Part shown: positions 4,528-17,020 of the stretch, piece after piece
Layout: each line of letters starts with the position of its first letter
Numbering within the stretch: position 1 is the stretch's first letter
Source of the DNA: Deltaproteobacteria bacterium
Lineage (GTDB): Bacteria; Myxococcota_A; Polyangia; HGW-17; SLPX01
DNA length: 49,041 nt
NCBI GenBank assembly: GCA_021162935.1
Contig: JAGGXR010000032.1
Location: forward strand, 1-49,041
Direction: 5' to 3'
Position numbers and translations under genes: made by a program
Notes under the pieces: generated by a model
Told to the model about the DNA's origin: nothing
The model's input: only the letters and a program-made list of their open reading frames with translations
Database searches by the model: none

Positions 4528-6012
4528 TCAGTTTTGGTGTGTCGGGTCGGTGTAGTGGGAGAGGTCGCCACCGCCCAGTTCGTAGATAGCTGATCCAGCG
4601 CCCGCCCAGAAGTGGTTCAGAGCGCCGTAGCCCATTCCTTCGACGACTTCCTGGTTTGGATCATTGTATCGGAACAGATTGAGCTGGATCCAGTTGCCGG
4701 TTGCGTCCTTGGTGAATTGGCCAATGTAGTCGGATGTCATGTCCGACACGTACTCATATCCGATACCCGTGTTCGGGTCTCGGACGAATTCTTGGCCGTC
4801 CAGGTGGCTTCCGTACATTTCCGGGTACTGAAACTGGGGCACCCAGACGCCTGCGTCGTTGTCGAAGGCGAAGATGCGCCGGGCACCTTCGTTGGATCCG
4901 TACCATACGCCGTCCACGTCATCATAGGAGAGTTCGGAAATGCTCAGGTCGCTGCCGTCGACTGCTGTCGTCACCTGTCCCGAGCCCATGTCGTATTCGA
5001 AAATTTTGCCGTTTTGGTTGTTTCGAGGAAAGTACAGCTTGGTGGCCGTTGCGTATATTTCACTGATGCTTCCGCTTCCCAGGGTCACGTCGTAGGTCTG
5101 CACGAGTGCCAGGGTGCGCTGCTCCATGGGCCCGAGATTATCGGGATTGTCCGGGTGCTGGTTGGGCTCCAGTTTTCCGTCGCCGTCCGAATCGAGCAGG
5201 GTGATGCGGTAGCAGTCGATGTGTGCTCCGCCGCGATTCGCGTAGATGAGGTCCTGGTACGAGTCTACGTCGTAGGCTGAAGTCAACAGACCATCGGCGT
5301 TTGTGAAATGGGCAAATTTGTAATAGACGCCCGTGACGTTTTCATTGTTGTTGCCCGGTGAATTGCCGGTGATGGGGATGGGGACGCAGGCTCCCGCGGT
5401 GGCATCACACATCGTGGCGCCGTTCTGCGGGAATGGATTGCAGGTCGCCCCGTTGATCCAGGACCCTTCATCGTTGGCGCATTGCCGGATCGTGTTTCCG
5501 AAGCAAGAGAAGGTGCCGGCTTTGCAGACCTGACAGACCCCGTTCGTGCAGGCACCGCTCTCGCAGTCGCTGTCGTCGTTGCACGTAAAAGACACGGGGC
5601 AGGGGGGGCAGATGCCGCCGCAGTCGGTGCTCGACTCGTCCTGGTTCTGAATGCCGTCGTCGCAGGTTTCGGGAGTCACGCAGGTGGGCGCATTGCCCGA
5701 ATCGTCGCAGATCTGGGTGGTGTCCGCGCAGTTTTGCTGGATCTTCCAGACGTGGCAGCCGTGTTCGTCCTCGAAGCAGACCTGGACGGACGTTCCTTCA
5801 CAACGGAGGACATCGAGCGTGTCACATGTGTTGGTGCATTGGTAGGCGTCACTGTCGCCATCTCCTGGGACGTGGCCATCTCCAAGTCCACTCGCATCTT
5901 CGGGGCCACCGTCGCCCGTTCCGTTCGACCCCGAAGGGCTGGGACCACAGGCAGCTGGCATCAGGAGGAAAACTGCGGCAGTAATGATAATGGAACGTGT
6001 AAAGGACTGCAT
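4528..6012 (-). CDS. Cys-rich, propeller-type lipoprotein, array copy 4
   Basis: This 494-residue paralog is the first copy of the array in transcription order. The ATG at 6012 follows AAGGAGA with good spacing. The signal peptide ends LLMPAAC, with Pro at -3, so the lipobox is not canonical. The Cys module differs from the others at DCGGICPPCPVSF. It is followed by a DSDGDG calcium loop, blade-like repeats (WYGSNEGARR, YEYVSDMTSD) and the common HYTDPTHQN end. It is separated from copy 3 by 261 bp that hold another promoter, so it may be transcribed alone or read through. A moderate promoter (TTGGTC, 18 bp, TAAGAT) upstream on the minus strand overlaps the 28-bp repeats. The function is unknown. 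Confidence 0.9.
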   Translation of the reverse strand: MQSFTRSIIITAAVFLLMPAACGPSPSGSNGTGDGGPEDASGLGDGHVPGDGDSDAYQCTNTCDTLDVLRCEGTSVQVCFEDEHGCHVWKIQQNCADTTQICDDSGNAPTCVTPETCDDGIQNQDESSTDCGGICPPCPVSFTCNDDSDCESGACTNGVCQVCKAGTFSCFGNTIRQCANDEGSWINGATCNPFPQNGATMCDATAGACVPIPITGNSPGNNNENVTGVYYKFAHFTNADGLLTSAYDVDSYQDLIYANRGGAHIDCYRITLLDSDGDGKLEPNQHPDNPDNLGPMEQRTLALVQTYDVTLGSGSISEIYATATKLYFPRNNQNGKIFEYDMGSGQVTTAVDGSDLSISELSYDDVDGVWYGSNEGARRIFAFDNDAGVWVPQFQYPEMYGSHLDGQEFVRDPNTGIGYEYVSDMTSDYIGQFTKDATGNWIQLNLFRYNDPNQEVVEGMGYGALNHFWAGAGSAIYELGGGDLSHYTDPTHQN

Positions 6013-6200: not shown

Positions 6201-8489
6201 GTGTCGTTTCTGGGAAAAATATTTGGCAGGAAGGCCTGGAAAGTATACGATCCGGATCTGGATGAACTTCCGGATCCCGGGGACTGGGGGCTCCCTCAGT
6301 CGCCGGCCTTCCAGGATGCGAATCAGCAAGCGGCCGTCGTGTCCGAGGTCGTGCTGGACCGCATTGCCGAAAACGACACGTCCATGCCCGAGGAATTGCG
6401 GGGCTGTTCCGTTGTAGAGCGGCGTTATGCCAATGGTCAATCTCAGATTGTGTATCGGGCGGACGATGGATTCTGCGCGGAAGAAGATAAGGCAGAAGTC
6501 TTGATTTTGGCCTATCAGGCCGAGGTGAACAAGAATCGATCGATGCCTACGGTAGGATTTGCCGCTCCGTCGTCATCTCAGGCAGGCTCCTCCAGGTTGG
6601 ATCGTGGCTCGCTCGCATCAGCCGAAGGAGGAATGTTCCATTCGTCGGTGCCTTCTGCTTCTGGCAGCGGCAGGATGGCGTCTGCACCCAGTCGTTCCGG
6701 CCCGCCTTTGATCACGGCCGCTTCGCCGTTGGCGGTTCCTCCGCCGATTCCCGTTGGGCCGCAGTCTCATGGGCAATCGACGACGGGCTGGCCTGCACAT
6801 CCCCAGGTGCCGTCAGACAGGCGCTTCGATCCAGGGCGATCGCTGTCGCCTGGGGGGCCTGCGTCCACGGTCCTTTCACGAGATGCCGTATTCGGGGCGG
6901 ATTCGCCCCGATCCGCGGCTTCAGCCAAGGTCCCCAAGGCCTCTGGACCCAAGATGGAGGTTCTTGACCAGTTGCCCGACGACGAGTCGGTTCCCAAGGC
7001 ATTGAGGTCCGCGTTGATGGTTCGTCGCCCCGACGGCATTTTTTACGTGACGGAAGAGGGGCGTTTGGTTCCCAAGGAGGAGGCAGAGCAGTGGATCGAC
7101 CTGTGGGAACGGGCACACATGCCCGTGGTGGAGTCTTCCGGACCGCTGGTTCAGGAGATGTCTCCAGGACGGAACATGGCCGAATCACAGCCTCCTGCAG
7201 GTGAGAATGTTCGTGTGGAGTCCGAGTCCTATTTTCCTGTGCGGACGGTCGTCGACCGGGTGGAATCCGCTTCTGTCGCGAGTGGAGGACAGGGGGCGCA
7301 GACCGCAGATGGCGCGTCCGATGCTCTCGATACGACACCCCAGACGGGGACCGAGATCGAGGCGGGCGCGCTTCGCATGGAACTGACCGGGCGCCCGGTT
7401 CGTTCCGGTTGGGGCTTTGGAGATGGGCAGGACGAAGAGGACCCATGGGAAGCGGCCATTCAGGCGGTCTCGGCGCCGGCCGGTGGTTCACCGGCTGCCA
7501 CGCAGACCGTTTCAACGGGCGATGTCCCTTCATCGGTCGGAAGGACGACGTCGGCCGGTGGGGAGCCGCCCGGAGCTGCCGGTGTTGCCGCGGCAGCGGG
7601 AGTCGCTTCCGAATTGGCGCGAAGGCGGGGTGGAACGATTCCTACGTCGGATCACCAGGCCTGGGAACCAGAGGTGACTCCCACGGTGAGTCAGCAGATT
7701 CCAGATACTGCCGTTGCGGAGCCGATACCCTCTGGTGGTGCGGCGGGCAGTCCCACGGCTATCTCTCGGGAGGTCGAGGCGGACCACGGTCCCGCCTACA
7801 GACGGGTTATGAAGGTGGCCGAGGCGATTCGACAGGACGTGATCGCCGGTCACTGGGGGCTTGCGGAGGCTCGTGACGACGAGCAAGACGTGGTCGAACT
7901 CTGTCAGGATATGATCGACCAGTCATGGCCTGACGATCGTGTCGAGCGAGCCATTCGCCAATCGGCGATGGTTCGTGATGTCTTGATGGAAGCAGCAGAA
8001 CAGGGGGCCGTGCGTTTCGATCGCAGTCTCAGGCGTGAGTTGGAGTCTGGTACCCGGGTGATGCTCCTGCTGAATCCGGCTCGTGTGGATGAACTGGACA
8101 TGGCGCTCCTGTCCACGTTGGTCCGCCTTAGGACCGTGAAGGCGAAACGTGCTGTGGTCCTGCGTGAACTCGAACATCTGTTCGAATCGGTGGTGGTCGC
8201 CGATCTGGCAAATTACATGATGACGAGGAGCTTCGTCGAGGAATTCGGCTGGACATTGGATGCGGATGCACACGCGGTTCAGGGCAAGGTGGTCCGGCTG
8301 TCTTCCTTGAAACGTCTGCTCGCCGATCTCCTTTCCAGGCGTTCTGCCGTGGCTGTGAACGACATCATCGGCCAAGTGGAGCGCCGCCATGGAGTCACCC
8401 TCCACTTCTTGAAACCTGTCCTGATTTCAGCATTAAATCCCTTTTTTCAGCAGGTAGTCCGTCGGGTCGTTCACGGGCTGAAACACTGA
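6201..8489 (+). CDS. Large protein of unknown function with low-complexity centre
   Basis: I do not recognise this 762-residue protein. It starts at a GTG (MSFLGKIFGRKAW) with GAGGTG upstream and has no signal peptide or membrane segment, so it is probably cytoplasmic. Residues 1-115 look folded and acidic. Residues of about 116-530 are rich in Ser, Pro, Gly and Ala, with one better-conserved-looking island near 255-305 (VRRPDGIFYV). The last 230 residues are predicted helical and charged (YRRVMKVAEAIRQ to VVHGLKH), and include a block that could pack as a regulatory or nucleotide-binding domain, though no motif supports that. It has its own promoter and no operon partner. Its codon use looks like that of its neighbours. 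Confidence 0.85.
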   Translation: MSFLGKIFGRKAWKVYDPDLDELPDPGDWGLPQSPAFQDANQQAAVVSEVVLDRIAENDTSMPEELRGCSVVERRYANGQSQIVYRADDGFCAEEDKAEVLILAYQAEVNKNRSMPTVGFAAPSSSQAGSSRLDRGSLASAEGGMFHSSVPSASGSGRMASAPSRSGPPLITAASPLAVPPPIPVGPQSHGQSTTGWPAHPQVPSDRRFDPGRSLSPGGPASTVLSRDAVFGADSPRSAASAKVPKASGPKMEVLDQLPDDESVPKALRSALMVRRPDGIFYVTEEGRLVPKEEAEQWIDLWERAHMPVVESSGPLVQEMSPGRNMAESQPPAGENVRVESESYFPVRTVVDRVESASVASGGQGAQTADGASDALDTTPQTGTEIEAGALRMELTGRPVRSGWGFGDGQDEEDPWEAAIQAVSAPAGGSPAATQTVSTGDVPSSVGRTTSAGGEPPGAAGVAAAAGVASELARRRGGTIPTSDHQAWEPEVTPTVSQQIPDTAVAEPIPSGGAAGSPTAISREVEADHGPAYRRVMKVAEAIRQDVIAGHWGLAEARDDEQDVVELCQDMIDQSWPDDRVERAIRQSAMVRDVLMEAAEQGAVRFDRSLRRELESGTRVMLLLNPARVDELDMALLSTLVRLRTVKAKRAVVLRELEHLFESVVVADLANYMMTRSFVEEFGWTLDADAHAVQGKVVRLSSLKRLLADLLSRRSAVAVNDIIGQVERRHGVTLHFLKPVLISALNPFFQQVVRRVVHGLKH

Positions 8490-8599: not shown

Positions 8600-9916
8600 T
8601 CAGGGCACGAGCAGGATCGGGTCGGCAAATCCAGGAGCAAAGCCGGTGGCCAGGACGTCGGTTGTGATTTCGCTGCAGTCGCCAGGGTGGAACACGCGGA
8701 TTCCCGGGGTGCTGTAGCTGCCGTCGGTGACCAGGAGGTCGCCTTCGCTCGTCAGGGCGGCATCCGTGATTTGGTCGAAGGTCCCTTCGGTGATGCAGGA
8801 ATCGATGTTGCTTCCATCCAGACAGAAGTGCTTGACGGACGTGGCGTAGGTCTGCGGATTCATGACCACGGCAAAGCCGCATCCCTGTCCATCCAGGGTG
8901 AAGTCGGTGACGACTCCTCCCAGGTCGGAGCAGGTGACAGCGGATTCAGCGGTCATGGCATCGAGGTCCACGACCGCGATACCGCCGCAGTCTTCCGCCT
9001 GCCAACTGGCGGCGCAGGCCACTGCGACTTTGTGGGCGCCGGTGACGGCCAGGATTGGGCTGACCGGATTCTGGTAGGGTAGAGTGATTGCTTGGACGCC
9101 GGATTGATTCGGGTCTGCATCCACGATGGTATCGGTGGTCGTGTCGATCACGGCGAGAGCGCCGTCGCCCGACGGAGCCATGTTCGGGTCATTGTGGTTC
9201 AATCGCTCGATGGCCACGATGAGCTGTGCGCCGTCGAGGTACAGATAGGACATTTCAGGCAACCCGTCATTGTCAGCCAGGCCAGCCAGGTCGATGCTGC
9301 CCACGATTTCGGTGCCCGGTTGAGCCGTCGGGTCCACGATGGTCATCTTGGCGGCGTCGAATTTGCTTACGTAGCACCGGCAGGTGGACGTGCAGGCGAT
9401 GTCCTGAGGATTCGTTCCCACTCCGACACTGAATTGGGTGACCAATGAAAAATTTTGGCCGTCGAGGATCGTGAGGTTATCGGCGTTGTATCGCCCCAAC
9501 ACCCAGAGTTTATGGTCGAACCAGCGAGTCACGGCGTCTTCGGGAACCTGGGCGACATCAGCGCTTGCGGCCAGTGGATCCAGGGTGACCACCGACAGGC
9601 CGCCTCCATTGCCGTAGCTCGACGTGGTGATCATGGCGCGGTGGTGCGGCGTTTGCGTCCGGTCGCCGGGATCACAGCCCACTGAACCGTCGATATCGCC
9701 GTCCGGGAGCGCGTCCGACCGTGGTCGGCTGTCCGTGATGTCGCCGTCTTGCTTGGTTTGAGCATCTTCGACGGACGCATCCACCTGATTGTTGCTGTTG
9801 GACGTATCGTCGTCTGAGCAGGCAGACAGTCCTGCCAAGGACAGCAACCCTAGGGCGAGGGTCGCGATAGCTCGGAGCGATGGTCCTCTGTGCGTGGTCG
9901 AATCAACATGCATCAT
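8600..9916 (-). CDS. YncE/BtuG-like beta-propeller lipoprotein in the cobalamin operon
   Basis: This 438-residue lipoprotein has a signal peptide ending LSAC (Cys33), an Asn/Asp-rich linker to about residue 75, and then blade-like repeats: LSVVTLDPL, DHKLWVLGRY, LTILDGQNFS, CRCYVSKFD, MTIVDPTAQ, LAVIDTTTD, IAVVDLDAM and LLVTDGSYS. This is the look of a seven-bladed YncE-like propeller. It starts 69 bp after the btuB stop, with no terminator between, behind a good AAGGAG site, so it should share the cobalamin riboswitch. In Bacteroides, BtuG is a propeller lipoprotein that binds B12 outside the cell and sits on BtuB. The same role here is inferred from context and fold pattern, not from recognised BtuG sequence signatures. 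Confidence 0.8.
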   Translation of the reverse strand: MMHVDSTTHRGPSLRAIATLALGLLSLAGLSACSDDDTSNSNNQVDASVEDAQTKQDGDITDSRPRSDALPDGDIDGSVGCDPGDRTQTPHHRAMITTSSYGNGGGLSVVTLDPLAASADVAQVPEDAVTRWFDHKLWVLGRYNADNLTILDGQNFSLVTQFSVGVGTNPQDIACTSTCRCYVSKFDAAKMTIVDPTAQPGTEIVGSIDLAGLADNDGLPEMSYLYLDGAQLIVAIERLNHNDPNMAPSGDGALAVIDTTTDTIVDADPNQSGVQAITLPYQNPVSPILAVTGAHKVAVACAASWQAEDCGGIAVVDLDAMTAESAVTCSDLGGVVTDFTLDGQGCGFAVVMNPQTYATSVKHFCLDGSNIDSCITEGTFDQITDAALTSEGDLLVTDGSYSTPGIRVFHPGDCSEITTDVLATGFAPGFADPILLVP

Positions 9917-9985
9917 CCGTTCTCCTTCCGTTCAGTGGGCCCGCTGTGGGGAGCAGGGCGAGCGTTTCATGATCTCGTCTTCGGA

Positions 9986-12055
9986 TCAGTGTTTCCAATT
10001 CGCGGTGACGAAAAAGGTCCTTCCCGGCATGGGATAGCCTGCATAATCGGCCAGAGACTGGCGGATGGTTCCCAGATGCGTGTTCGGGGGGGCCGGGATC
10101 GTCTCGGTGATTTGACCGATCAGATTTCGGCCTTCCACGGTGATGGTGAGTCCTTCCACCCATGGCGCCACCTTGAGGCCGATGGCCAAGAAAATGCGTC
10201 TTCCGCCCTGAGACCGATTGCCCAAGTCCCGATAGAACGGCGATAGGTACTGCACCTCGCAGTAGCCTCCCAGCCCCCAGCGGTGCCAGGTTTTTGCCCA
10301 GTCGAATCGGGCGAACACATCATGTTTCGTCCGGCCCGGTAGTTCATTTCCCTTCATGTTGGTGGTCGGCCCCAGGTACGTGGTATGCGTAAACGTGTAG
10401 TTGACGGTCATCTTCGTGTGCCGGAACAGCCAGACCGTGGCGCTGGCCTCGAGTCCGGCGATCCATGCGTTGCCCCAGTTTTGCGCGACCAGGGCTCTAG
10501 CGGTGGGCAACAAGAAGATGAGGTTGCTCGCACGCCTGCCGAAACCAGCCACTTCGACATCGAGACGATTGACCCACCAGGAGCGAAATCGTCGCGAATA
10601 CTTTGGACCGAAATCCATGTTCCAACCATTTTCTGGTTCGAGGTCCGTGTTTCCACGGACGATGCCGTGCTGTCCGAACAGTTCCATGAATGTGGCCGGT
10701 CTGAAGTAGCGGCCTGCATTGGCCTTGAGACTGAGGCCCGACGTGATGGTGACCGAAGCGCCGAGCCTTGGGCTGGGGAGCCAGGCAATCCGATGCGACT
10801 GTTCGAGCCAGTCCGACAGGATGTCGACACGGACTACGGGGGCCAGGTACAGGCGACCATGAGCCAGAAAGATTTCGTCCCGGATCGCGATTCCCGATGA
10901 CAATCGTGAACGAACGGGACTCCAATCCGCAGCATCGAGGCGTTCCATATCCCGATAGAACTGGGCTGACAGGTCCGGTATCACGCTCAGAATTTGGTGG
11001 GTCCCCCAAAAGTACTGGAGCCGGGCAGTCAGCCCAGTGCTCCAGTTGTGCTGGATCGAGTCGGTTCTTCCCACGGACAGGAGTTTGCCCTCGGGATTCG
11101 AGAAGTGCTCTCGAAAAAACAGTCCATAGAGGCGGGCCATGACCGCGATGGGCAGTCCTGCGGGACGACTTCGATCCAACTGGATGCTGAGACCCTGACG
11201 CAGGTAGCTGTAGAAGGGGCCTTCTATGGGAGGTTGACTTGCGGTTCCCGCCAATTGTGACGATTTCCACGCCAGATTCTCGACGACGGCCAGCTTGAGT
11301 CGTCCCACGTGGCGAACCCGACCCAGAAATTGGACCTGGTTGAACGCGTTGTTGTCCCGTTTGCGAAATTGGTCGTCTGCCGGCTGATACGGTGTCTGAT
11401 GATCGTCGAAATAGCGGAAGCCTCCCTGGCTGCCTTGATAGGCGGCCGACAGGACGTATCCCCAAGAGCCAATCGATTGAGCCCGCTCGAGGCCGACTCG
11501 TCGCATGTACCAGCAGCCCATCGACGCGAAGACCTCGTGGGTCGCCTTGGCCGTGGGAAATCGAGTGACCAGGTTGATGCCGCCACCCATGGCGGACGAG
11601 CCGAATTCGGCTGGGAGGAAACCGCGAAAAATCTCGATGCGATCCAACAGAAAGAATGGCAGGGTAGACAGATCCACCGCGTCGGCCCCTGCTCGATTGA
11701 GGGGAATGCCGTCCAGGAAGACGGCGATCTGTTGGGGGGAAGAGCCTCGGATGAGAACGGCGCTGAAGGCGCCCAGACCGCCGAGGGAGCGGACCTGGAC
11801 TCCCACAGTCTCGGAGAGAACCTCGGGCAATGTGGCTGCCTCCTGGGCGGCTCGTTCTTGGTCGATGGTGGTAGAGAAGGCGCTTGGATGCGCTGCTGCG
11901 TCTTCGGGTTCAACGGGGCGATCGTGAACTTGTACGTCCTGGACATCGAGCGGTCGGGCTTGGGCAGAGGGCGCGATCCACGTGAGGAAGACGGCCCCCA
12001 GGGGTAGAAGCATTGCCACACGGAGGCGGCCGATGGTCCGACGAGATTTCAACAC
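9986..12055 (-). CDS. btuB: TonB-dependent outer-membrane cobalamin receptor, BtuB-like
   Basis: This protein takes up vitamin B12 across the outer membrane with TonB energy. The plug domain is clear (LPEVLSETVGVQVRSLGG, then VLIRGSSPQQIAVFLDGIPLN and SSAMGGGINLVTR), followed by a long beta-barrel ending FFVTANWKH. The cobalamin substrate is supported by the riboswitch directly upstream. I chose the GTG at 12055 because GGGGTGA stands five bases before it and the product (689 residues) then begins with a basic n-region and a signal peptide cut after AQA. An ATG at 12142 would add 29 unlikely residues and lies inside a hairpin. No inner-membrane BtuCDF genes are in the window. Confidence 0.9.
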   Translation of the reverse strand: MLKSRRTIGRLRVAMLLPLGAVFLTWIAPSAQARPLDVQDVQVHDRPVEPEDAAAHPSAFSTTIDQERAAQEAATLPEVLSETVGVQVRSLGGLGAFSAVLIRGSSPQQIAVFLDGIPLNRAGADAVDLSTLPFFLLDRIEIFRGFLPAEFGSSAMGGGINLVTRFPTAKATHEVFASMGCWYMRRVGLERAQSIGSWGYVLSAAYQGSQGGFRYFDDHQTPYQPADDQFRKRDNNAFNQVQFLGRVRHVGRLKLAVVENLAWKSSQLAGTASQPPIEGPFYSYLRQGLSIQLDRSRPAGLPIAVMARLYGLFFREHFSNPEGKLLSVGRTDSIQHNWSTGLTARLQYFWGTHQILSVIPDLSAQFYRDMERLDAADWSPVRSRLSSGIAIRDEIFLAHGRLYLAPVVRVDILSDWLEQSHRIAWLPSPRLGASVTITSGLSLKANAGRYFRPATFMELFGQHGIVRGNTDLEPENGWNMDFGPKYSRRFRSWWVNRLDVEVAGFGRRASNLIFLLPTARALVAQNWGNAWIAGLEASATVWLFRHTKMTVNYTFTHTTYLGPTTNMKGNELPGRTKHDVFARFDWAKTWHRWGLGGYCEVQYLSPFYRDLGNRSQGGRRIFLAIGLKVAPWVEGLTITVEGRNLIGQITETIPAPPNTHLGTIRQSLADYAGYPMPGRTFFVTANWKH

Positions 12056-12077
12056 GACGATCACCCCGCGTCTTTGC

Positions 12078-12163
12078 CAGATTTCGCCGTTCGATGAGGT
12101 GATGTGGAGGCGTCGGTCAGGTGTCGGACCGGCCTCCTTCATCCCCGAGGAGGGCGAAATCTG
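12078..12163 (-). promoter_or_regulatory. Candidate expression platform of the cobalamin riboswitch
   Basis: Directly after the aptamer, CAGATTTCGCC (12163-12153) can pair perfectly with GGCGAAATCTG (12088-12078). Inside it, CCTCCT (12153-12148) can pair with AGGAGG (12138-12133). There is no run of T after the stems, so control of translation or RNA folding is likelier than termination. The btuB ribosome site lies just beyond the 3' arm. Confidence 0.5.
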
Positions 12164-12167
12164 ACCG

Positions 12168-12380
12168 TGCGGGCCGGTCTCCTGGCTTGCTGGATCGTCC
12201 TACTCGCGGCGCCTTCCCGGCGAGACAACCATCTCCGCTCACATGCGTACGGCCCTTGGGGCCCCGAAGTGATCGACTTCTCGTCAGTGGCCTGCTGCCG
12301 CTTTCGTACCCAGTTACAGTGGCGGGGGCCGCGCCGGATTTTCACCGGCTTCCCTAGGGAGACGAACTCCCCGCCCGCAC
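12168..12380 (-). promoter_or_regulatory. Cobalamin (adenosylcobalamin) riboswitch
   Basis: The minus strand carries the hallmark conserved blocks: GGGAAGCCGGTGAAAATCCG, then GCGGCCCCCGCCACTGTAA, a variable arm, and the 3' block GCCAGGAGACCGGCC. The closing P1 helix is visible as GTGCGGGC (12380-12373) pairing with GCCCGCAC (12175-12168). It precedes btuB by about 110 nt. Binding of cobalamin normally lowers expression of the downstream genes. A TTGACA at 12459-12454 with a poor -10 (CACATT) 17 bp on is a possible promoter. Confidence 0.96.
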
Positions 12381-12660
12381 GAACAGCAGTTTTTTTCGGC
12401 AGGGCAAAGCCCTGTCCGAGTGCTTTGGCAATGTGCCCCTGCAGGTCCTGGTTGTCAAGGCTCACGCGAACCAAGCGATTGAGGCTCATTCGAAGCAGGC
12501 AATTGACTTGTTTCGGAGTTGCTTGTGGCGCGTATCCCCGTGTATTTTGGAAGTCTGCGCGATCTGGACCGAGTCCTCGATCACACGATTGCATACATGA
12601 ATCAGAAGCCGCACGAGATCGCGTATTGTCGTCGGGCATTGCTGGCGGCGACCCATGCGG
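12381..12660. other. Stretch without a confident gene
   Basis: Between the riboswitch and the terminator of the next lipoprotein gene I see no supportable gene. A hairpin CAGGGC-AAA-GCCCTG lies at 12400-12416 without a T-run on its downstream side in either direction. Open frames on both strands here have no family resemblance and no good ribosome site. Confidence 0.5.
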
Positions 12661-12708: not shown

Positions 12709-13269
12709 TCAGAAAGTCGGTGGCAGGCAGACCGTTTGGCCAATCGCGCCTCCGGGATCCTGACAGCTGTAGCCGTCGGCCTGGCGGCAATCCCCGTCTC
12801 CACTGCAGGTCTTGAAGCACTTGCCTTGGCCAGAAAACCCGCTACAGATTGCACCTGTGCCGCATGGGTCCGGGTCGTTGTTCGCAGGAGGTGTGCAGCT
12901 CGCGGAGCAGTATCCGTTCTTGAACTGGATGATGGCCACGGTCGTCATGCAGTCTGCTGTGAGACTTTGGGGCGCTGCGCAGTCCGAGGCGTCTGTGCAG
13001 GGATCGCCGATCGCGCCGTTGCCGTTCCCCCCTCCGTCAGGCGATGGCGCTCCGTCCTGGATGACGGCGGAATCCACGCCTGAGCCATCCTGCTGCATCG
13101 TGCCGTCTTGGTTCGACGCGTCTGAATTCGTGCTGCTGTCCACGGCCGCATCGTGGCCGACCTGATTGTTCAGGTTTCCTCCGCTGCTCGAATCGTCACT
13201 GCAGGCTGCCAATGGAAGCCATGCCGCGGCGATACCGACCGCCATCACTGCTATGAATCTTGTACGCAT
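12709..13269 (-). CDS. Small Cys-rich lipoprotein
   Basis: This 186-residue lipoprotein has a signal peptide ending LAAC (Cys23) and then a Ser/Asn/Asp/Gly-rich linker to about residue 85. A compact domain follows with about ten cysteines (GDPCTDASDC, NGYCSASC, GDGDCRQADGYSCQ). The C-terminal pattern resembles the small disulfide-rich repeats common in surface proteins of Myxococcota. The ATG has AGGAGG eleven bases upstream. A candidate terminator follows the stop, so it is probably not cotranscribed with the riboswitch operon downstream. The function is unknown. It is likely anchored in the outer membrane, since +2 is Ser rather than the inner-membrane retention Asp known from E. coli. Confidence 0.85.
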   Translation of the reverse strand: MRTRFIAVMAVGIAAAWLPLAACSDDSSSGGNLNNQVGHDAAVDSSTNSDASNQDGTMQQDGSGVDSAVIQDGAPSPDGGGNGNGAIGDPCTDASDCAAPQSLTADCMTTVAIIQFKNGYCSASCTPPANNDPDPCGTGAICSGFSGQGKCFKTCSGDGDCRQADGYSCQDPGGAIGQTVCLPPTF

Positions 13270-14700: not shown

Positions 14701-14902
14701 CGGCTGGCGGGTATTTGCTCCTGTCGATTCGTTTGGATTTTGGCCCTTTGGCCGATGATGCCGTCGGGCGTCCCCGATCCATCCGATGTTTGACCAACAG
14801 GCATGGTCGTGTTTTACTTGATTCAAGAGGGAAAGGGGCGCACGGGATCGTCGAGTTGACGGTTGATCGACGCTGACGCCCTCGTTGGAGGCGGTTGCTC
14901 GG

Positions 14903-17020
14903 ATGGCGAGGTTCTGGACGGCTCTTATTGGAACGGCGACATTGATGCTCGGCGTGGCGTCCTTTCGTCTCGTGTTCGCCTCTGGCCCCGTTTCCGCTCC
15001 CGGCAGACCCGGTGCCTCGACGAACGGCACTGCGGCGCGGGATGCTGGGGTGGTCGATGCAGCCATGGCCGGACGGGGCTCCGGGATGGGGGCTGCCGGG
15101 AGGATTGCGGACGGTAGGCCGGACTCTGGTCTTCCTTTGGACGTAGGGAATCCCGCCGATGCTGTGATACGTCGTACTCAGTCTTCTGCTTCGGACGGGG
15201 GGATTCGGCAGGGCGTCGGTCCCACGGCGTCCTCGGTGGACGGTGGGGATGGCGGACCGTCCGTGATCCGAACAGGGGGCGATGCCGGTTCGGTGTCCGC
15301 CCGGGGTGACTCCCAGCCGTCCGCCCGTGCTGCCGACATCAAAGAAATTCTTCACGCCCGGCAACGCCTGACTTCGGCGGACCCTGCTGCACGGGCCGCT
15401 GCGGCTCGGCTCTTGGGCCTGGCCGGAGATCTTCCATCCATGGACGGCCTGCTCGCGGCTCTCAAGGACATGGCCCCCCAGGTGCGGGAGGCGGCGGCGG
15501 ATGCTCTCGGTGTGATGGGAAATCAGCGGGCTGCGGCAGCGTTGCTTCCTCTCCTCAAAGACGTGAGTGTCGGTGTCCGACGCGCTGCAGTGGCTGCGCT
15601 CGGGGTCGTGGGGAATCGATCGGTGGTTCCTCAGATTCTCACGCTTTCTTTTGATCGATCGGCGGCCGTTCGGAGAGCCGTGGCACGATCGCTCGGCGCA
15701 CTCGGGGATCGATCGGCTGGGCCGTCCCTCGTGTCCCTGTTTGCGGACGTGAATGCCATGGTCCGGGTCGAGGCCGTCCGAGCTGTTGGGCGAATGGATT
15801 ACAGTGCCGCTTCGTCGGACCTGATCCGCATGCTTGGAGATCCCAGGTGGCAGGTTCGACGGGCCGCTTCAGATGTGTTGGTGCGCTTCCATTCGACGGC
15901 AGGTCCGGTTCTCATCTCCGCTTTGGCGAGCCGACGGTGGCTCCTACGCAGCCAGGCGGCTGAGACGTTGGGCAGGATGAAGGAGGCCGAAGCCGGTCCC
16001 GCTTTGATGGACGCACTCCGAGATCGGAATCGCCATGTACGTGCGGCTGCGGCCCATGCCCTGGGGGTTATCAGGGTGTCTGCTGCGGCTCCATTGCTCG
16101 TTCGGGCCCTGCGGGATCGCGACCTGTTCGTTCGACGCCAGGCCGCCCTTGCCTGTGGCCGCGTTTGTCTGAGTGATGCGTCGCCATCCGTGGCGCGCCT
16201 GCTCTTCGATGCGGAAGATATGGTCCGTCTCGCTGCCGCCGAGGCGCTCGTTGGGATGGGAGATGCTCGGGCCGTTCCAGCGCTGTTGAGAGCGGCAGGG
16301 CGGCCACCGGCCTATGTGCGGGAGGTGGCGGTCAAGGCTCTGGGGCGCATTGGGGATATGCGCGCTCTGCCGGTGATCGTTGCCAGGCTCGTGGACAAGG
16401 ATCTGTTGGTGCGGAAGGAGGCCGAACGGGCCTGTGTGGGCCTTGGCCCTAGTGCGATTCCCGTGCTCATAAAGAAGACGAAGGATTCGAATCCATCTCT
16501 TCGGTCCGGAGCCGTCAGGGCGCTTGGGTGGTTTCGGGAACAGTCGGCGGCCAAAACCGTCGTGGCAGCATTGGAAGACAAGGATTGGTCAGTGCAGGCG
16601 GCAGCGGTCCAGGCGCTCAAAAGAATGGGAGCCTTGGCGGTTTCGTCGGTTCTGGCGGTCCTCGATACCGGTAGCACTCAGGCGCGAGTCGGTGCGATCC
16701 GGGCTATGGGAGAGATGGGGCAGGTGGCCGCCGTGCCTCGGTTGCTGAGCATGCTTAGAGGGGCTTCGGTCGTCATGCGGGTGGCGGCGGCGGAGGCTTT
16801 GGGTAAAATTGGAGACCTTTCGGCACTCGTTCCTTTGCTCAAGCTTGCGCATTCGAAAAACTGGAGGTTGCGGCGCGGCGGAATCATCGGTCTTGGCTCA
16901 TTGGGATGCAAACGCTGCCGGGAGGCGGTCAATCGTGCCTTCAGGGATGTGAATGGTCGCGTTCGTGCCGCTGCTTTCCAAAGTCTGGCGAGGCGTCGTT
17001 CTGGACATCCGTTGCCGTGA
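14903..17020 (+). CDS. Exported HEAT-repeat protein
   Basis: This 705-residue protein has an N-terminal hydrophobic segment ([18 protein letters not shown]), then a Gly/Ala/Asp-rich low-complexity region to about residue 145, then roughly 17 HEAT repeats of about 31 residues (consensus VRxAAAxALGxxGDxxAxPxLLxxL) to the C-terminus. Such PBS-lyase-type HEAT arrays act as scaffolds for protein binding. No catalytic motif is seen, so the partner is unknown. I chose the ATG at 14903 because GGAGG precedes it by eleven bases and the signal sequence follows at once. The gene lies 200 bp after ddl and 112 bp before queF, without evident functional link. Confidence 0.88.

Follow-up and report, generated by a model that had tools for sequence, protein, structure and literature searches.

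A divergent BtuBG-type receptor and propeller lipoprotein pair behind a cobalamin riboswitch: a probable corrinoid capture module in a Myxococcota genome

A 49,041-nucleotide (nt) stretch of DNA from a deltaproteobacterium placed in Myxococcota_A (GenBank assembly GCA_021162935.1, contig JAGGXR010000032.1, positions 1 to 49,041; the whole stretch is referred to here as the window) carries on its minus strand an operon that opens with a cobalamin riboswitch (12393-12155) and continues, in the direction of transcription, with genes for a BtuB-like TonB-dependent receptor and a lipoprotein (9916-8600). Sequence comparison and structural modeling make it likely (probability of about 0.75) that this operon encodes an outer membrane module for corrinoid capture and import, a divergent form of a widespread BtuBG-type pair. 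An initial annotation, made from the sequence alone, had named the riboswitch, the BtuB-like receptor, and the lipoprotein gene 69 nt downstream with no terminator between, and all of these were confirmed by RF00174, Pfam, and a terminator scan. Its further suggestion of a BtuG-like capture system for vitamin B12 (B12) also held, in that the nearest solved structures of the lipoprotein are BtuG, which also comes first for a profile built from the B12-linked relatives of the lipoprotein.

The AlphaFold2 model of the mature lipoprotein, built with 23 homologs, is all beta, with a predicted local distance difference test (pLDDT) score of 88 and a predicted template modeling (TM) score of 0.85, and its approximately 27 strands fit a seven-bladed propeller. 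A fold other than a propeller had been named beforehand as grounds for abandoning the proposal, and the model does show a propeller; the earlier description, “about eight YncE-like blade strands,” is imprecise. When the model was compared with 350,542 chains of the PDB by Foldseek, ranks 1 to 16 were all occupied by BtuG1, BtuG2, and BtuG3 (E values of 7e-15 to 1e-12, target TM scores up to 0.80), followed by 1l0q, XusB (rank 18 and lower), Escherichia coli YncE (rank 25), and BtuK1 (rank 28). Assignment of the lipoprotein to XusB by nearest structure was rejected, as XusB trails 16 BtuG chains and 1l0q.

Profile searches of the PDB point in the same direction. BtuG was ranked first both by a profile of 49 Myxococcota homologs (A2; 4e-9) and by one of 24 homologs from a partly overlapping set (A4; 7e-8). 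For a profile restricted to 11 relatives of the window protein (A8), of which 9 have a detectable riboswitch and the other 2 lie on contigs too short upstream, BtuG filled ranks 1 to 9 (3.5e-10 to 6.5e-9), and the next fold, Lp49, followed at 1.5e-4, a gap of about five orders of magnitude. A control profile (A7), built from 11 broader homologs that lack both riboswitch and receptor, placed 1l0q and YncE first and reached BtuG only at 5.5e-6. The lipoprotein is thus likely to be distantly homologous to Bacteroidota BtuG, on sequence grounds that fall short of proof. The initial annotation had left the choice between convergence and spread beyond Bacteroidota; since the profiles of both proteins rank Bacteroides BtuG and BtuB first, shared ancestry with a wide distribution is favored, and convergence is disfavored rather than refuted. 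No relative of the lipoprotein was found on viral contigs. Propeller lipoproteins of the control type occur at loci L051, L060, L061, L062, L072, L073, L074, L082, L087, L088, and L090.

Homologs of the lipoprotein are present in 83 of 379 Myxococcota genomes. Linkage was scored at the 53 places in Myxococcota where a homolog is preceded by 3 kb or more of DNA, a riboswitch being counted when it lay on the same strand within 3 kb. A riboswitch was found at 38 places, a receptor directly upstream at 31, both at 28, and either at 41. The initial annotation had named the absence of such a lipoprotein beside btuB in all related genomes as grounds for refutation; in many of them one does lie next to a riboswitch and/or BtuB. 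A riboswitch without a receptor call was seen at 10 of the 53 places, mostly directly before the lipoprotein gene. Loci where the riboswitch is immediately 5′ of a BtuG-like gene and no family receptor lies directly upstream are L040, L041, L046, L047, L056, L064, and L092; a lipoprotein alone behind a riboswitch, as in L040, L046, and similar loci, could possibly act as a free-standing B12 trap. One Myxococcota contig (L050:6156-17735) contains two copies of the entire cassette in inverted orientation, apparently identical, which may be an assembly artifact or a recent duplication.

The pair is also found beyond Myxococcota. Named GTDB genomes scanned with the combined DNA motif NPQD...DGxPEA yielded 30 hits, of which 7 were discarded because a hidden Markov model detected no lipoprotein homolog. 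All 23 remaining homologs have a family receptor adjacent on the same strand, and a riboswitch was seen at 13. This set and the first Myxococcota set overlap, 6 of the 23 loci lying on contigs that the latter already contains. The genomes found in this way include Eisenbacteria, Fermentibacteria, a Caldithrix record (“Caldithrix sp.”), and HRbin30. The Fermentibacteria locus (L121:1196-5024, minus strand) has the order riboswitch-lipoprotein-receptor, with the two genes reversed relative to the window. A match occurs in 19 of 100 genomes of the phylum to which the Caldithrix record belongs; at 15 loci examined there, a receptor is also present at 10 (once on the opposite strand) and a riboswitch below an E value of 0.001 at 7, some of them weak. 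The lipoproteins of this phylum form one clade (support, 0.89), and the family therefore looks old there rather than recently acquired. The receptor tree resolves deep splits poorly, and we therefore make no claim on the direction of transfer.

As a control for bias, linkage was also read from the riboswitch: in 51 Myxococcota genomes, 80 riboswitches were accepted just as they were detected, and 5 kb downstream was inspected. Of these, 70 had enough DNA; the lipoprotein follows 24 of them, in 20 cases together with the receptor and in 4 without it, and a further 14 are followed by the receptor alone. A lipoprotein match lies behind a riboswitch in 25 of the 51 genomes, some of these matches being weak (35 to 70 bits); with about one family copy per genome, a random 5-kb stretch would hold one roughly once per thousand. 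The two genes can also stand apart: one genome (G029) has two diverging riboswitches, one serving the receptor and the other the lipoprotein, and in two others (G014 and G019) receptor and lipoprotein are on separate contigs, each behind its own riboswitch.

The receptor has a Plug domain (PF07715, 2e-16) and a TonB-dependent barrel (PF00593, 7e-26). Its family profile (A5) ranked BtuB1 (8blw_A), which is the partner of BtuG1, first in the PDB, at 2.7e-45 and across the whole length, and the single receptor sequence ranked XusA (9gbc) first. The predicted receptor structure (pLDDT, 85) gave the Foldseek order BtuB3, XusA, PqqU, BtuB3, BtuB1, with the highest target TM score (0.85) for BtuB1. 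At 117 bits against a cutoff of 599.7, the receptor is not a TonB-B12 equivalog by the NCBIfam model. It is the sole close member of its family in the host assembly (751 bits; next, 113). The GTG at 12055, directly before a predicted signal peptide, is a likelier start than the opening of the reading frame at 12142.

The features of the operon, all on the minus strand, are as follows.

12155..12393, minus strand: cobalamin riboswitch aptamer in the leader of the two-gene operon (RF00174, 104.6 bits, E value 3.1e-25).
12056..12154, minus strand: likely expression platform, from aptamer to receptor start (RNA fold; putative regulatory role).
9986..12055 (open reading frame opens at 12142), minus strand: BtuB-like TonB-dependent receptor (Pfam, family profile, and fold).
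9917..9985, minus strand: intergenic gap of 69 nt from receptor stop to lipoprotein start, with the ribosome-binding site AAGGAG (sequence).
8600..9916, minus strand: BtuG-like lipoprotein of 438 amino acids, predicted seven-bladed propeller (predicted fold, structural matches, and linkage of homologs).
9818..9916, minus strand: lipoprotein signal peptide with lipobox LSAC at residues 30 to 33, Cys33 at 9820-9818 (sequence reading).
9671..9817, minus strand: disordered, acidic tether that links the lipid anchor to the propeller, about 50 residues long (pLDDT below about 56, mature residues 1 to 50).
9401..9412, minus strand: NPQD motif at a blade start, mature residues 137 to 140 (invariant in 24 homologs; opens strand 138-145).
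9254..9274, minus strand: acidic loop D-x-D-G-x-P-E, mature residues 183 to 189, before the inner strand of a blade (conserved in 24 homologs).

The RF00174 match is full length (model positions 1 to 189), far exceeds the gathering score of 31.5, and is the only cobalamin riboswitch in a genome-wide scan of the 5.13-Mb, 97%-complete assembly. Downstream of the aptamer, RNA folding of 12200-12030 (z-score, −2.5) allows a 13-bp helix, GGUCAGAUUUCGCC/GGCGAAAUCUGGC, near the receptor start codon, which is a plausible expression platform. No terminator-like site was found on the operon strand in the gap between the two genes. The initial annotation had also named a separate unregulated promoter for the lipoprotein as grounds for refutation; a scan, itself a weak one, found no separate sigma-70-like promoter before that gene. 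The lipobox is likewise present in many homologs. Alignment and model place the NPQD and DxDGxPE motifs in loops that lead directly into inner blade strands, and D183, D185, G186, P188, and E189 (mature numbering) are invariant across the 24 homologs; by general propeller topology, these conserved acidic loops probably line one face of the propeller near its central cavity. The net charge of the lipoprotein is −32 (family mean, −25). The residues after Cys33 are acidic (SDDDT), a feature that is not specific, since a second lipoprotein of the window (12709-13269) is likewise acidic after its cysteine.

That second lipoprotein lies just upstream of the riboswitch on the minus strand and has 186 amino acids, beginning LAAC-SDDSSS, with a cysteine-rich domain and no family match. 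The 3′ end of the operon faces a convergent plus-strand gene (6201-8489), beyond which a further minus-strand lipoprotein (4528-6012) has the lipobox AAC, a cysteine-rich N-terminal part, and a C-terminal part that is possibly propeller-like; it matched nothing in Pfam or NCBIfam. A plus-strand gene at 14885-17020 encodes a HEAT-repeat-like protein of about 700 amino acids.

The host genome encodes a BtuC-like permease beside which reading of the sequence places open reading frames for an ATP-binding cassette ATPase and a periplasmic binding protein. At L190:4593-7762 (minus strand) of this genome, overlapping BtuC-, BtuD-, and BtuF-like genes form one apparent operon without a riboswitch, with a BamA-like gene adjacent. 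Proteins with B12-binding domains are present, and biosynthetic CbiC was not found in the assembly (a single marker, and so moderate evidence only); the host therefore probably depends on imported corrinoid and would be a B12 auxotroph.

We propose the following scheme. (i) At low cellular B12, the ligand-free riboswitch would permit production of receptor and lipoprotein. (ii) Cys33 would anchor the lipoprotein, and the acidic flexible tether would present the strongly negative seven-bladed propeller, most likely on the outer surface and over the BtuB-like receptor, as fold, sequence profile, and gene linkage suggest. (iii) The acidic-loop face of the propeller may, on the same grounds, bind corrinoids and pass them to the receptor in the manner of BtuG. 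(iv) TonB energy would drive the corrinoid into the periplasm, from which (v) the unlinked BtuF-BtuC-BtuD-like set (contig C81) would carry it into the cell.

Several results weigh against a BtuBG-type module. As a single sequence, the lipoprotein has no match in Pfam, NCBIfam, or the PDB, and the propeller assignment therefore rests on profiles and fold. Its identity to BtuG is about 15%, and neither it nor any of its 49 homologs matches PF16819 (DUF5074), for which reason it is not filed in that family (a phylum-wide PF16819 search matched other loci only). The profile built from relatives in the phylum of the Caldithrix record (A6) does not reach BtuG. At 12 of the 53 Myxococcota places, neither riboswitch nor receptor is present, and the broad family is therefore not exclusively B12 linked. 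The siderophore pair XusAB, also a receptor plus a propeller, ranks high for both proteins.

One alternative concerns origin rather than function. An unrelated YncE-type propeller lipoprotein might have been recruited beside btuB independently and now work in the same way, which would be compatible with corrinoid capture; the low identity, the position outside DUF5074, the A6 set, and the ease with which propellers are misranked all speak for this. We nevertheless regard such convergence as doubtful, as BtuG scores 3.5e-10 with the B12-linked profile and the fold ranked after it is some five orders weaker, the unlinked control prefers other propellers, and lipoprotein and receptor alike point to Bacteroides pairs. 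A device like XusAB, in which the propeller traps a siderophore, heme, or another metal complex that the receptor imports instead of a corrinoid, would fit the presence of XusA and XusB among the nearest structures and the first rank of XusA for the single receptor sequence. It is very improbable given the cobalamin riboswitches ahead of receptor or lipoprotein in dozens of genomes, and BtuG beats XusB in structure, as BtuB1 beats XusA in the family profile. The lipoprotein could instead be a periplasmic helper, a member of the B12 regulon on the inner leaflet that accepts corrinoid delivered by the receptor and relays it to a BtuF-like protein: surface export is not readable from sequence, and a BtuF-like protein encoded elsewhere leaves a place for an intermediary. 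This is unlikely, since every closest solved structure of the lipoprotein is a surface BtuG lid and the receptor most resembles lid-bearing receptors (BtuB1, BtuB3, and XusA). That the lipoprotein gene is a chance neighbor of btuB with some unrelated role would be conceivable from the gene order of one genome, but it is hardly credible when the linkage recurs in varied arrangements, both in Myxococcota and in four or more further named groups, and chance would place the family in a random 5-kb stretch about once per thousand.

BtuG has been called exclusive to Bacteroidetes (BlastP at 1e-10, 313 gut genomes; PMC6143338, eLife 2018) and discussed as a response to competition for B12 in the gut (PMC6143338, PMC10404256). 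The idea that B12 is captured outside Bacteroidota has already appeared in print (PMC13398666, FEBS Open Bio 2026), but for a different domain family: B12-binding lipoproteins of DUF4465 are reported there in several phyla, including Myxococcota, and the DUF5074 (PF16819) propeller family is said to co-occur with them and with TonB receptors. The passages of that article read here do not describe the propeller family of the window in Myxococcota, and we found no report of this family outside Bacteroidota in the open-access literature. We would give roughly even odds to the broader idea that B12 capture by a receptor plus a propeller lid is an ancient strategy of many phyla (Myxococcota, Eisenbacteria, Fermentibacteria, Caldithrix, HRbin30, and more), of which Bacteroides BtuBG is one specialized branch, and that in some lineages the lid, with a riboswitch to itself, serves as a free-standing B12 trap. 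If the predicted function is correct, lid-assisted B12 capture would be general beyond Bacteroidetes, a large family without a Pfam or NCBIfam name would gain a function, and work on corrinoid cross-feeding would gain new candidate binders. The origin of BtuG becomes a question that can be tested with a few purified proteins.

Comparison with characterized systems places the window pair closest to those of Bacteroides. The receptor shares the Plug domain, the TonB-dependent barrel, and the cobalamin riboswitch with BtuB1 and BtuB3 of Bacteroides thetaiotaomicron (8blw_A and 8p98_A) and with E. coli BtuB. The XusA-XusB xenosiderophore system (9gbc, 9hqk; PMC13142918) likewise combines a TonB receptor with a propeller lipoprotein lid and is structurally near, but its substrate is a siderophore, it ranks behind BtuG and BtuB3, and the window locus has a cobalamin riboswitch. 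Two further B12-binding proteins belong in the comparison: BtuJ (DUF4465; PMC13398666), one of the additional B12-binding lipoproteins beside btuB, is of a different domain family from the window propeller, and Bacteroides BtuK1 (9s6c) stands well behind BtuG at Foldseek rank 28. BtuG1, BtuG2, and BtuG3 of B. thetaiotaomicron (8ptf, 8ptd, 8okv, and 8bmy; PMC6143338, PMC10404256), the top match in the entire PDB by structure as well as by profile, are likewise very negative seven-bladed propeller lipoproteins encoded beside btuB under riboswitch control, and BtuG2 (net charge, −18e) binds corrinoids on its negative propeller face and covers BtuB2 as a lid would (PMC10404256). The window lipoprotein, known here from sequence and model, has about 15% identity to BtuG, falls outside DUF5074, and belongs to a family of Myxococcota and other phyla, some members of which stand alone behind a riboswitch.

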